A DNA stretch of 64,000 bases from Myceligenerans pegani (GTDB taxonomy: Bacteria > Actinomycetota > Actinomycetes > Actinomycetales > Cellulomonadaceae): assembly GCF_014892515.1 (NCBI RefSeq), contig NZ_JADBGR010000088.1, forward strand, positions 62,001 through 126,000, in the 5' to 3' direction. Position numbers and translations under genes: made by a program. Numbering within the stretch: the first letter of the stretch is position 1; each line of letters starts with the position of its first letter. Under the pieces are notes generated by a model that saw only the letters and a program-made list of their open reading frames with translations, was not told where the DNA came from and did not search any database. Shown here piece by piece: positions 10,044 through 13,756 of the stretch.

Positions 10044-11825
10044 TCAGAAGAGGGCGTCCTGGCCTGGGGCGTCCGGCGCGGCCGGTGCACCTCGCGACGG
10101 CTCGGCCGATGCGGGCATCGCCCCCTCGGGATAGGCACCCTCGTCGCCGCGGGCCGGTCCGGGACCACCCGAACCAGAACTGCCCGGCCCGGGACCGCCC
10201 GGTCCGGAGGAGCCGGATCCGCCGCGGGTGCCGCCGTCGTCGTCGACGGCCTTGTCGGGGCCGCTGTCGAACCGGGAGGCGGCGCGGCCCAGGCCGCGCT
10301 CCGCGAGGAGCGGCTCGGCCCGCTCCCACAGCCAGTCCTGGTAGCGGCGATCGACGTAGGCGCGATCGCCGAAAATGCGCCGGTATCCCGCCGCGTGCTG
10401 CGGGAATTCGCGTCGCAGCCACTCCAGGTACCACTCCCTGGCGCCCGGCCGCAGATGCAGCGGGAGCACCGTCGCCCCTGTGGCGCCCGCCTCGGAGACG
10501 GCGTCGAGGAGGCGCGCGAGGTGGTCGCGGGAGTCGGTGAGCCACGGGAGCACGGGTGCGACCATGACCCCGCACGGCAGGCCGGCCTCCCGGATGGCGC
10601 GGATCAGCGCGAGCCGGGCGCGTGGCGTCGGCGTGCCGGGTTCGACCCTCTGCTGGAGTTCCTCGTCCGCGAAGGCGAGGGAGACGCCCAGTCCGACCTC
10701 GACCCGCTCCGCGGCCTCCGTGAGCAGCGGGAGGTCGCGGCGCAGCAGTGTGCCCTTGGTGAGGATCGAGAACGGGGTACCGGAGTCGGCCAGCGCCGAG
10801 ATGATCCCGGGCATCAGGCGGTACCGGCCCTCCGCACGCTGGTACGGGTCGGTGTTGGTGCCGAGCGCGACGGACTCGTGACCCCAGGAGGGCCTGGCCA
10901 GCTCCGCCCGGAGGACCTCGTCCACATTGACCTTGACCACCACCTGGGAATCGAAGTCCGCCCCGGCGTCGAGGTCCAGGTAGGTGTGGGAGCCGCGGGC
11001 GTAGCAGTTGTGACTGATCACGCCGTCGGCGACGAAGTCCCCGGTGCCCGTGGTGATGTCGACCAGGTCGGTCTCGTGGCCCAGGTCCTCGACCGACACC
11101 ACCGTTCGGCCGGGGGAGGTCCGCACGAGCCGGCCGACGACGTCGACGGGAGACGGAGCACCGGAACCCGGGAGACCGGGCCCGCCGACGGGATCGATTC
11201 CCGCGAGACCGTCGCCCGGGCGCAGCACCGGGCGCTCGGCACGCGCGGTGCCCGGATCGACCGAATCGGCCGACGGGTGGCCGTGCGGCACGCGTCCCGC
11301 GGACGGCGCGAGGCGGGCATCCGCCTCGTCGGCGGAGGCTCCCGCCACGTACCGCCAGCCGTCGCCGGTGAGGAACCGGTGGTCGCCGCTGGCGACGAGG
11401 GTGGTGCCGTCGGCGGTCGTCACGCGATATGCGCGCTTGACCGTACGCCACGCGTCCCGGACGTCGGTCTCGACCAGGACGCGGCGGCCGCCGTCGGGCA
11501 GCGTGCCGATGACGCGGTCGCCCGGGACGAGGTCGCCGATGGGACGCCACGTGCCGTCGCCGAGCAGTACCGGCGTGTCCGGCGCCAGGCAGTAGCGACA
11601 GGCATGACTGCAGCCGCGGTAGGGGTTCACGGTCCAGCGGAACGGCATCCGGGACGCGGCCGGAACCTTCGACAGCGCGCTCCGGGCGACGACCTCGTGG
11701 AACGTGACGCCGTCGAACTCCGGGCTGCGGACGGCACGGATCAGCCCGGCCGTGCGCAGCGCGGGGAGCTCGAGTCCCGGCAGCGCGCCGTCGTCCGTGG
11801 TGAGTTGCTGGCCTGCCCATCGCAC
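10044..11825 (-). CDS. Rv2578c-type radical SAM protein containing an intein
   Basis: The start was set at GTG 11825 because the family begins at the (V/M)RWxGQ motif and a -10 like TCGAAT ends seven bases upstream; an ATG at 11843 would add six residues. The 593-residue precursor starts with DDGALPGLELPALR and FDGVTFHEVVARSAL, followed by the cluster motif. In the spliced product, GCSHACRY joins CYARGSHTYLDLD to give CX3CX2C. A 195-residue intein (residues about 79–273) sits exactly before the third cysteine. After it come TNTDPYQ, the barrel segments FSILTKGTLL and MVAPVLP, and a Gly/Ser/Pro-rich tail. The mature protein should bind a 4Fe-4S cluster and S-adenosylmethionine; its substrate is unknown. 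The gene lies near hisS and rel, as in mycobacteria. Confidence 0.92.
   Translation of the reverse strand: MRWAGQQLTTDDGALPGLELPALRTAGLIRAVRSPEFDGVTFHEVVARSALSKVPAASRMPFRWTVNPYRGCSHACRYCLAPDTPVLLGDGTWRPIGDLVPGDRVIGTLPDGGRRVLVETDVRDAWRTVKRAYRVTTADGTTLVASGDHRFLTGDGWRYVAGASADEADARLAPSAGRVPHGHPSADSVDPGTARAERPVLRPGDGLAGIDPVGGPGLPGSGAPSPVDVVGRLVRTSPGRTVVSVEDLGHETDLVDITTGTGDFVADGVISHNCYARGSHTYLDLDAGADFDSQVVVKVNVDEVLRAELARPSWGHESVALGTNTDPYQRAEGRYRLMPGIISALADSGTPFSILTKGTLLRRDLPLLTEAAERVEVGLGVSLAFADEELQQRVEPGTPTPRARLALIRAIREAGLPCGVMVAPVLPWLTDSRDHLARLLDAVSEAGATGATVLPLHLRPGAREWYLEWLRREFPQHAAGYRRIFGDRAYVDRRYQDWLWERAEPLLAERGLGRAASRFDSGPDKAVDDDGGTRGGSGSSGPGGPGPGSSGSGGPGPARGDEGAYPEGAMPASAEPSRGAPAAPDAPGQDALF
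11007..11591 (-). other. Intein coding segment (mini-intein, no homing endonuclease)
   Basis: The segment encodes 195 residues. Block A is CLAPDTPVLLGDGTW with Cys1. Block B is LVASGDHRFLT with its His. Block F is LVDITTGTGDFVADG. Block G ends in ISHN, followed by +1 Cys of the host. All residues needed for protein splicing are visible: Cys1, the block-B His, the penultimate His, the terminal Asn and the +1 Cys. The middle (about 85 residues) is Pro/Gly-rich without LAGLIDADG motifs, so no endonuclease remains. The +1 Cys is itself the third Fe-S ligand of the host enzyme. Confidence 0.95.
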
Positions 11826-11833
11826 ACAGAGAT

Positions 11834-11849
11834 TCGAACACATGTTCCC
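11834..11849. promoter_or_regulatory. LexA (SOS)-box-like dyad overlapping the radical-SAM promoter
   Basis: TCGAACACATGTTCCC has the GAAC-N4-GTTC dyad of actinobacterial LexA boxes (consensus TCGAAC-N4-GTTCGA) with an imperfect right end. It overlaps the candidate -10 of the radical-SAM gene, just upstream of GTG 11825. A -35-like TTGCGA lies 17 bp upstream of that -10. DNA-damage control is therefore possible but needs testing. Confidence 0.5.
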
Positions 11850-12093
11850 ATGGTTCGCAACTCTTCGGCCGCGATATGCGTGATATGTGCGCAATGTGAT
11901 GGGGCGGAGCGGCGGCGCAGGACCCGGTAGGGCATCGCGCCGCCGTGTCCTGACGCGCGTGGTCGGGCGTCACATGCCGCGGACGTTCAGCAGGACGTTC
12001 GGCGACCCGCGCCGCGCGTCCGAGGCGACGCCCGTTGTGCCGCCGGTCACGAGCGCGGAAGCCTCGGGGTGAAAACGTACCGACGGGCGCTCG

Positions 12094-12157: not shown

Positions 12158-13756
12158 CTACTTCCCGGACTCGGCGCCGGGCACCGCGCGGGGGTGCAGG
12201 TCCTCGGCCGGGGGTTCCCATGTCGTCGCGTCGGCGTCGACCTGCTCGCCCGAGCGGATGTCCTTGACCGAGCCGGTCAGGCGGCCCGCGAGAGCAGGCG
12301 CGCCGGCGTCCTCGGGGGCGGGGACCGCTGTGGCGGGGGCTGCGTCGGCGGGGGCACTGTCGGCGGGGACTGCGTCGGCGGGAGTGGAGTCCGCGGCGGC
12401 GGCGTCCGCGGCGGCGGTGCCCGCGGCGGCGTCCGCCGGCGCGGACGGCTCGGGCGCGGACGGCTCGGGCGCGGACGGCTCCGGTGTGGAGGCCTCCCCG
12501 CCTGGCTCGCCCGGGAACCAGACGAACGGGATCCCGCGGCGATCCGCGTACCTGATCTGCTTGCCGAACTTCGCGGCGGTCGGGGCCACCTCGCACGGGA
12601 TGCCCCGGCCGCGCAGGGCGGAGGCGACGGCGTCGGACACCGGCCGCGTCTCCTCCGTCGTGACCGCGACGAGCACGGCGGCGGGCACACCACGGGTGGC
12701 GGTCACGAGGCCGCCGGAGAGCAACCGGGACACGAGCCGGCTGACCCCGACCGACAGGCCGACACCCGGGTAGGTGTTCTTCCCGTCCGACGCCAGCGTG
12801 TCGTACCGGCCGCCGGAGCAGACCGAGCCGAGCTGCTCGTGCCCCACCAGCACCGTCTCGTAGACCGAGCCGGTGTAGTAGTCCAGCCCGCGGGCGATCT
12901 TCAGGTCCGCGACGACGACGCCGGGCACCCTCTCCCCCGCCGCCACGACGAGCGCCTCGAGCTCGGCGAGCCCGGTGGTGAGGAGCTCCGTCACGGCGCC
13001 GTACGACTCCGCGAGCGTCCGCACGTCGGCGATCACCGACACGTCGGAGCCGCTGATGCCCGCGAGCGCGAGGCACGCCTTGGCCTGGTCCTCGCTCGCC
13101 CCGCACTCCTCGACGAGGAGCGCGGCGACCTTCTCCGGGCCGATCTTGTCGAGCTTGTCGATCTGCCGCAGCGCGCCCTCGACGTCCGACAGGCCGATGC
13201 CGCGGTAGAACCCTTCGGCGACCTTGCGGTTGTTGACGAGGATGCGTACTGGCGGCAGGCCGACCTCGCGCAGGGCACCGAACGCCTCGGCCATGACGAG
13301 GGGGACCTCGACCTCGTAGTGGTACGGGAGGTCCCCGGAGCCGACGACGTCGATGTCGGCCTGTGTGAACTCACGGAACCGGCCCTCCTGAGGGCGCTCA
13401 CCGCGCCAGACCTTCTGGATCTGGTACCGCTTGAAGGGAAAGGAGAGCCTGCCGGCGTTCTCCAGCACGTAGCGGGCGAACGGAACGGTGAGGTCGAAGT
13501 GGAGTCCGAGCTGCTTGTCGCCGCGCTCCCGCTGACCGGGCTCGTCGAGCTCCTGGAGCCTCGAGAGCACGTAGACCTCCTTGGAGGTCTCGCCTTTGCG
13601 CAGCAACTGCTCGAGCGGTTCGACGGCCCGGGTCTCGATCCCGGCGTACCCGTGCAGCTCGAACGTACGACGCAGCACGTCGAGCACGTGCTGCTCGACG
13701 ACGCGGTCCTGCGGGAGCCATTCGGGGAAACCGGAGAGTGGAGCGATACGGGCCAT
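12158..13756 (-). CDS. hisS: Histidyl-tRNA synthetase with a repetitive insertion
   Basis: This 532-residue class II aminoacyl-tRNA synthetase attaches histidine to tRNA-His. Motif 1 (SGFPEWLP and following), FDLTVPFARYV, motif 2 (YQIQKVWRGERPQEGRFREF), the histidine-binding LDYYTG and SVCSGGRYDTL, and motif 3 (GVGLSVGVSRL) are all present. The anticodon-binding domain is interrupted at about residues 419–494 (12275–12502) by an Ala/Pro/Asp/Ser segment that begins with tandem PEPSA repeats. The conserved GSVKDIRSGEQV then resumes. The enzyme core is intact, so the insertion is probably a tolerated surface loop. The protein is about 70–80 residues longer than usual for this reason. Confidence 0.97.
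   Translation of the reverse strand: MARIAPLSGFPEWLPQDRVVEQHVLDVLRRTFELHGYAGIETRAVEPLEQLLRKGETSKEVYVLSRLQELDEPGQRERGDKQLGLHFDLTVPFARYVLENAGRLSFPFKRYQIQKVWRGERPQEGRFREFTQADIDVVGSGDLPYHYEVEVPLVMAEAFGALREVGLPPVRILVNNRKVAEGFYRGIGLSDVEGALRQIDKLDKIGPEKVAALLVEECGASEDQAKACLALAGISGSDVSVIADVRTLAESYGAVTELLTTGLAELEALVVAAGERVPGVVVADLKIARGLDYYTGSVYETVLVGHEQLGSVCSGGRYDTLASDGKNTYPGVGLSVGVSRLVSRLLSGGLVTATRGVPAAVLVAVTTEETRPVSDAVASALRGRGIPCEVAPTAAKFGKQIRYADRRGIPFVWFPGEPGGEASTPEPSAPEPSAPEPSAPADAAAGTAAADAAAADSTPADAVPADSAPADAAPATAVPAPEDAGAPALAGRLTGSVKDIRSGEQVDADATTWEPPAEDLHPRAVPGAESGK

Follow-up and report, generated by a model that had tools for sequence, protein, structure and literature searches.

It is still debated whether inteins act as parasites or as regulators, and inteins in Fe-S cluster loops make a sharp test case because the same cysteines serve both the cluster and splicing. 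The 64,000-nucleotide stretch of Myceligenerans pegani DNA analysed here (the window) holds such a case, an intein at a cluster cysteine of a radical SAM enzyme, with a LexA-like box in front of the gene. The locus raises the question of whether this intein regulates its host or is merely carried by it.

The intein-containing precursor

The gene, its parts and its upstream neighbour are arranged as follows.

10044–11825, minus strand: intein-containing precursor of an Rv2578c-family radical SAM protein; 593 amino acids from a GTG start at 11825
11592–11825, minus strand: N-extein, residues 1–78, ending ...GCSHACRY
11007–11591, minus strand: mini-intein, residues 79–273, from Cys1 to His272-Asn273; TIGR01445, HINT fold
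10047–11006, minus strand: C-extein, residues 274–593, beginning CYARGSHTYL
11589–11612, minus strand: CX3CX2C of the precursor, formed by Cys72, Cys76 and intein Cys1 (79)
12158–13756, minus strand: hisS, the upstream neighbour on the same strand, outside the proposed mechanism

Against NF038136, which models Rv2578c family radical SAM proteins with an intein, the precursor scores 769.3 bits (cut-off 700); against the family model NF038135 it scores 511.2 bits (cut-off 430), in an alignment that starts at residue 1. The match to PF04055 (53.1 bits, cut-off 29.5) places it in the radical SAM superfamily, with its CX3CX2C motif spanning the splice junction. Residues 72–79 read CSHACRYC, with Cys72, Cys76 and Cys79 set out as C-SHA-C-RY-C, and Cys274, the third cysteine of the cluster, is also the +1 residue of splicing. 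The initial annotation had described a mini-intein that splits CX3CX2C just ahead of its third cysteine in an Rv2578c-family protein, with that cysteine as the +1 residue, and had taken such proteins to be a known kind. The 195-residue intein, the position of Cys274 and the existence of NF038136 bear this out; the precursor is a new member of a kind already modelled in NCBIfam. Of 110 loci searched, some of which have short flanks, 40 have hisS upstream with an identity of at least 59%.

A mini-intein with the sequence features of class 1

The intein ends in VISHN, contains Cys1 as its sole cysteine and matches TIGR01445 with 37.3 bits (cut-off 24.5). Its sequence has the features of class 1: Cys1, a block B histidine, a terminal His-Asn and a +1 nucleophile. 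These residues, Cys1 (Cys79), His149, His272-Asn273 and Cys274, are invariant in all 29 proteins of an alignment that covers 29 of the 32 intein-bearing sequences (L015, L033 and L062 were left out); a second alignment is without 19 of the 49 intein-free proteins. The block B motif is named as TXXH in the available text of PMC10663303; here the position of the usual threonine is Ser146, again invariant in 29 of 29. A search of the window protein for LAGLIDADG gave no match at E values up to 0.1. The middle of the intein is a linker, and the endonuclease domain that defines a homing intein is absent. In the predicted structure of the precursor (mean pLDDT 69.9, pTM 0.58), a HINT domain is present, for which the best match is 6fre (Z 20.3, rmsd 2.1, 144 residues aligned).

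In the comparison of the window with L002, dN/dS is 0.58 in the linker but 0.09 over the first 85 intein codons and 0.12 over the last 40. Among the six other pairs computed, the middle is likewise the least constrained part in window/L003, L008/L010 and L007/L011. L008 and L013 go against the trend, with 0.45 over the last 40 codons and 0.28 in the middle. In two pairs the middle holds an endonuclease region: in L019/L022 it has a value of 0.17 against 0.21 in the first part, and in L017/L018 it has the highest value of the intein, yet a low one (0.18). Across pairs, conservation of the splicing parts is thus the rule, though not without exceptions.

The splice junctions are uniform. In all 31 readable ones the −1 residue is Tyr, and positions +1/+2 are Cys followed by Phe or Tyr; L033, in which the frame is broken and the C-extein was not found, does not enter the junction counts or those of the intein and host trees. 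In these residues they resemble the junction of Npu DnaE, which is fast-splicing, and the likeness favours a neutral passenger that splices immediately and constitutively in every condition, free of physiological sensitivity. We lean towards that view, which is weighed further below.

Distribution and origin of the intein

Among the window and 80 further loci, the intein is present in 32 sequences, always at the identical site, and missing from 49. The 80 loci are the best 80 of 161 confirmed and so sample near relatives; the nearest named ones, Myceligenerans salitolerans and M. indicum, both have the intein at the same site. Of seven other intein-bearing members scanned, six have LAGLIDADG_3 at this site, above the Pfam cut-off in L016, L017 and L029 and below it in L019, L031 and L038; none was found in the seventh, L014, which has a mini-intein. 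The host-protein tree (80 rows, 31 with intein) is a quick one, flagged for long branches that meet; on it, presence and absence require at least 11 changes, of which starred branches force 6. In the intein tree, Nesterenkonia (Micrococcaceae) clusters with Promicromonosporaceae (SH-aLRT 91, not starred), the pattern expected from horizontal homing, and intein and host distances are only moderately correlated (Spearman 0.40 over 465 pairs). L009, titled Sphaerisporangium cinnabarinum, falls inside Cellulosimicrobium in both the host and the intein trees, and the strain may be mislabelled.

The Rv2578c family is matched in 177 of 394 genomes sampled across the class, in 158 of them above the family cut-off, which none of 14 control genomes passes. 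By hand count, at least 31 of the rows listed span more than 1,300 bases and therefore contain an insert, weaker split matches being uncounted. In one genus, coded g55, all 12 genomes listed with a match have an insert of the same size, about 150 residues (again a hand count), which is too short for an endonuclease. The promoter stretch of L116, from this genus, is identical to that of L014, Jiangella asiatica, so that g55 is probably Jiangella.

Since its presence is sporadic and relatives at the same site bear an endonuclease, the intein is best read as a decayed selfish element. The same two observations, with the probable horizontal transfer, speak for constitutive splicing without a regulatory role. 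For the same-size inserts of g55, a pure decay account must invoke the difficulty of precise loss.

A phage donor was considered and rejected: 191 phage records match the intein, all below 60% identity, and the collection contains no close donor. Coverage of the query reaches 80% in just one match, a terminase at 24% identity; among the 20 rows listed, the remaining 19, in portal, exonuclease and terminase genes, have 39–50% coverage and 34–42% identity.

Other inteins occur in the same genome. Its recA gene (G000:C25:11406-13283; L097, L098) is also interrupted by one: TIGR02012 matches with 548 bits in two stretches and TIGR01445 lies above its cut-off, while NF007072, for intein-containing RecA, reaches 620.7 bits, below its cut-off of 1024. 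The DnaB helicase (G000:C92:95648-95881, L130; NF005852 1239 bits, TIGR01445 above cut-off) carries one too, so that RecA, DnaB and the radical SAM protein are all intein-bearing. Co-inheritance with the RecA intein is rejected: among 40 of the 80 loci, RecA is split in two (L013 and L049), and it is intact in M. salitolerans and M. indicum. A fourth intein-like N-terminal match (29.1 bits; G000:C61:33016-33225, L133) lies in a 2767-residue open frame of repeat-like sequence and is probably a Hint domain of another kind.

A predicted LexA operator within the core promoter

The predicted promoter elements lie on either side of the LexA-like box that had been noted upstream of the gene, the −10 element overlapping it.

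11855–11860, minus strand: −35 element TTGCGA, 17 bp from the −10 element
11834–11849, minus strand: predicted LexA operator GGGAACATGTGTTCGA, −24 to −9 from the start codon
11832–11837, minus strand: −10 element TCGAAT, which runs into the operator's right arm

The window's box has two mismatches in 12 to TCGAACN4GTTCGA, and is among the weakest of 80 promoters compared, 10/12 being the score in 5 of them. LexA-box matches with up to two mismatches number 7 in the window against 2.76 expected, and at least 7 occurred in 2 of 100 shuffles, so the box alone is weak evidence. As judged from sequence, its conservation and placement in orthologues go far beyond chance. Among the window and the 79 loci with a readable start (the start of L062 lies outside its contig), the best 16-mer scores 12/12 in 46 sequences, 11 in 29 and 10 in 5, and hence 10/12 or better in 80 of 80. 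Its distance to the start codon is 7–9 nt in 79 of these and an overlap in one (L028). The lexA and recA genes of the window's genome each have a one-mismatch box upstream, from which it follows that the consensus holds there.

The core promoter is similarly constant: T occurs at −35 in 78 of 80, at −12 in 73 and at −7 in 72, and TTGA or TTGC starts at −36 to −34 in 73. The operator sits between a −35 element at −35 and a −10 element ending at −7. With a 17-bp spacer and both elements fixed, the start codon falls where +1 would be expected, and the layout suggests a leaderless promoter repressed by LexA.

The mean box score is 11.47 of 12 in 49 intein-free sequences and 11.58 in 31 intein-bearing ones. 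The score is independent of the intein, and SOS control therefore belongs to the host enzyme. The tie between intein and LexA box in the initial annotation is not upheld, and their origin as a single evolved unit is ruled out.

A spacing fixed everywhere is also ruled out. Among 30 class-wide loci (L099–L128), the gap is 7–9 nt in seven and 5 nt in L118; the other 22, from a clade that is probably Streptomyces, have a different layout, with a weaker box (9–10/12) 30–68 nt upstream of the start. The box in this clade is commonly GGGAACNNNNGTTCTA, mostly at about −46. An AGGAGG-type site precedes the start in all 19 of the 22 loci whose sequence was displayed, and this clade has perhaps switched from a leaderless to a leadered promoter. 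By our own estimate a 9/12 box arises somewhere in 200 nt with a chance of about 7% per locus, so that only the repeated spacing counts here.

PA0069 is a member of the Pseudomonas SOS regulon. Our literature search found no paper joining PA0069 with LexA, nor any joining Rv2578c with an intein or with LexA. Radical SAM genes under SOS control have already been published, going by the available text of the papers cited here. The LexA regulon of Streptomyces venezuelae includes the radical SAM gene vnz_31145, with an RNA-seq fold change of 19.97 with mitomycin C (PMC9380542); a comparative study counts a radical SAM protein among the core SOS genes of Gram-positive bacteria (PMC7739468); and the RecA-dependent genes of Mycobacterium tuberculosis include a 'DNA repair photolyase' (PMC8151990). 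All three genes are likened to the Rv2578c family by description, not by sequence, and the box of vnz_31145, reported at −61 (PMC9380542), disagrees with the position of about −46 that prevails in the probable Streptomyces clade.

The predicted structure of the intein-free protein L026 (pLDDT 73.8) is most similar to spore photoproduct lyase (Z 14.6, rmsd 4.3, 269 residues aligned, 12% identity). Such a fold, in a model, would be in keeping with a repair role without showing one, since fold shows no function; no known substrate of the Rv2578c family was found in our search.

Cluster motif, redox state and metals

The claim that the cluster cannot form until splicing has occurred is not supported as put. 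In 32 of 32 intein-bearing sequences the unspliced chain already reads CX3CX2C, Cys1 of the intein standing in for the third cysteine, and the absence of a cluster before splicing is thus an assumption rather than a consequence. For an intein that begins with Cys1 and lies directly before the third cysteine, completion of the motif and the geometry of Cys −3 and Cys1 follow automatically. None of the present computations points to conditional splicing, and the on-switch of the initial annotation is likewise not supported as put. Regulation through splicing would be possible, and it might take several forms.

In one of these, a disulfide between Cys76 (−3) and Cys79 (1) would block the first step of splicing, and the oxygen-sensitive enzyme would mature only in reducing cells, SOS providing the transcript and redox state licensing maturation. 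The geometry is present: a cysteine lies at −3, separated from Cys1 by two residues, and the junction is CXY/C (the slash marking the splice site) in all 31 readable cases. The CXX/C spacing equals that of the Pyrococcus abyssi MoaA intein and of an engineered DnaE intein, in both of which, according to the available text of PMC3922620 and PMC10663303, Cys −3 traps Cys1 through a disulfide. The engineered chain in PDB 3nzm reads FCPG/C, and the modelled precursor aligns with it (Z 17.1, rmsd 2.6, 151 residues); moreover, the window intein offers no cysteine beyond Cys1. A cysteine at −3 is thus a demonstrated liability in two other inteins, as reported there, and counts against splicing wholly free of sensitivity. 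However, Cys76 is required by the enzyme anyway, for its cluster, so that neither its conservation nor the geometry is proof of selection for a switch, and close relatives without an intein (for example, L023 and L027) imply that such a gate is dispensable. We consider it unlikely.

Alternatively, Cys72, Cys76 and Cys79 might bind zinc or an Fe-S cluster and sequester Cys1, leaving the chain unspliced until the metal is removed. Zinc does block the DnaBi1 intein of Mycobacterium smegmatis by binding the initiating nucleophile, as reported in the available text of PMC7360933, and Cys1 completes the motif in every precursor. Nevertheless, that completion is automatic, the loop after Cys1 is intein instead of the FAR or YAR of a genuine site, and residues 72–75 are of low confidence in the precursor model; judged from these sequence features, we think such a lock very improbable.

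A combined form would have LexA gate transcription at the leaderless promoter and the intein gate maturation, with Cys1 taking the place of the cluster's third cysteine; on the unspliced loop, the nucleophile would be withheld by a Cys76–Cys1 disulfide, a metal ion or a wrongly placed cluster. Were this so, an oxygen-sensitive enzyme would mature only in a reduced, metal-balanced cell, but we give the idea little credence.

A model for the locus

From the observed anatomy, family, promoter conservation and sporadic distribution, we conclude that the gene probably encodes a radical SAM enzyme under SOS control, similar in fold to spore photoproduct lyase, whose cluster loop is interrupted by a class 1 mini-intein that has decayed and does not home. 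LexA would occupy the core promoter, and its RecA-triggered cleavage would yield a leaderless mRNA with transcription starting at the initiation codon. In the precursor, Cys1 would attack after Tyr78, the chain would transfer to Cys274 and Asn273 would cyclise, restoring CSHACRYCYAR, whereupon the cluster could be built for catalysis, plausibly in DNA repair. Given a reducing cytosol, splicing is most likely rapid, and the intein would be kept as a selfish remnant because its precise loss is difficult. A latent sensitivity may persist, in that oxidation joining Cys76 (−3) to Cys1, or a metal on Cys72, Cys76 and Cys1, would stall splicing, and this built-in weakness to oxidants and metals may be of consequence in life or of none.

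Nature supplies pairs with and without the intein behind LexA promoters of one kind, so that what the intein does to SOS output is directly measurable. The conserved, apparently leaderless operator also provides a simple rule for finding the SOS radical SAM gene across many Actinomycetota.

Comparison with known systems

The best host-fold match, to spore photoproduct lyase (4fhf and 4fhc, with the L026 model), extends over 269 residues, yet at 12% identity. For the intein, the best solved fold matches are the DnaB mini-inteins 6fre, 1mi8 and 4o1r, and the best solved sequence match is the M. smegmatis DnaB intein 6bs8 (E 7e-5); these differ from the window intein in host protein and site, and 6bs8 is of class 3. 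MoaA, like the present host, is a radical SAM enzyme. In its P. abyssi intein, Cys −3 of the N-extein can trap Cys1, as reported by Callahan 2011 according to two reviews, and the position is shared with the window protein; that intein is archaeal and lies in another host protein, and is likened by this reported feature, not by sequence. The engineered Ssp DnaE redox-trap precursor (3nzm) has the cysteine at −3 and the HINT fold (Z 17.1) in common with the window protein, whereas it is a designed molecule with the junction CPG/C in place of CRY/C. The closest counterparts are the NF038136 proteins, which the window protein resembles in its whole-length match above the cut-off and in its insertion site; some of them have an endonuclease, in contrast to the version in the window.
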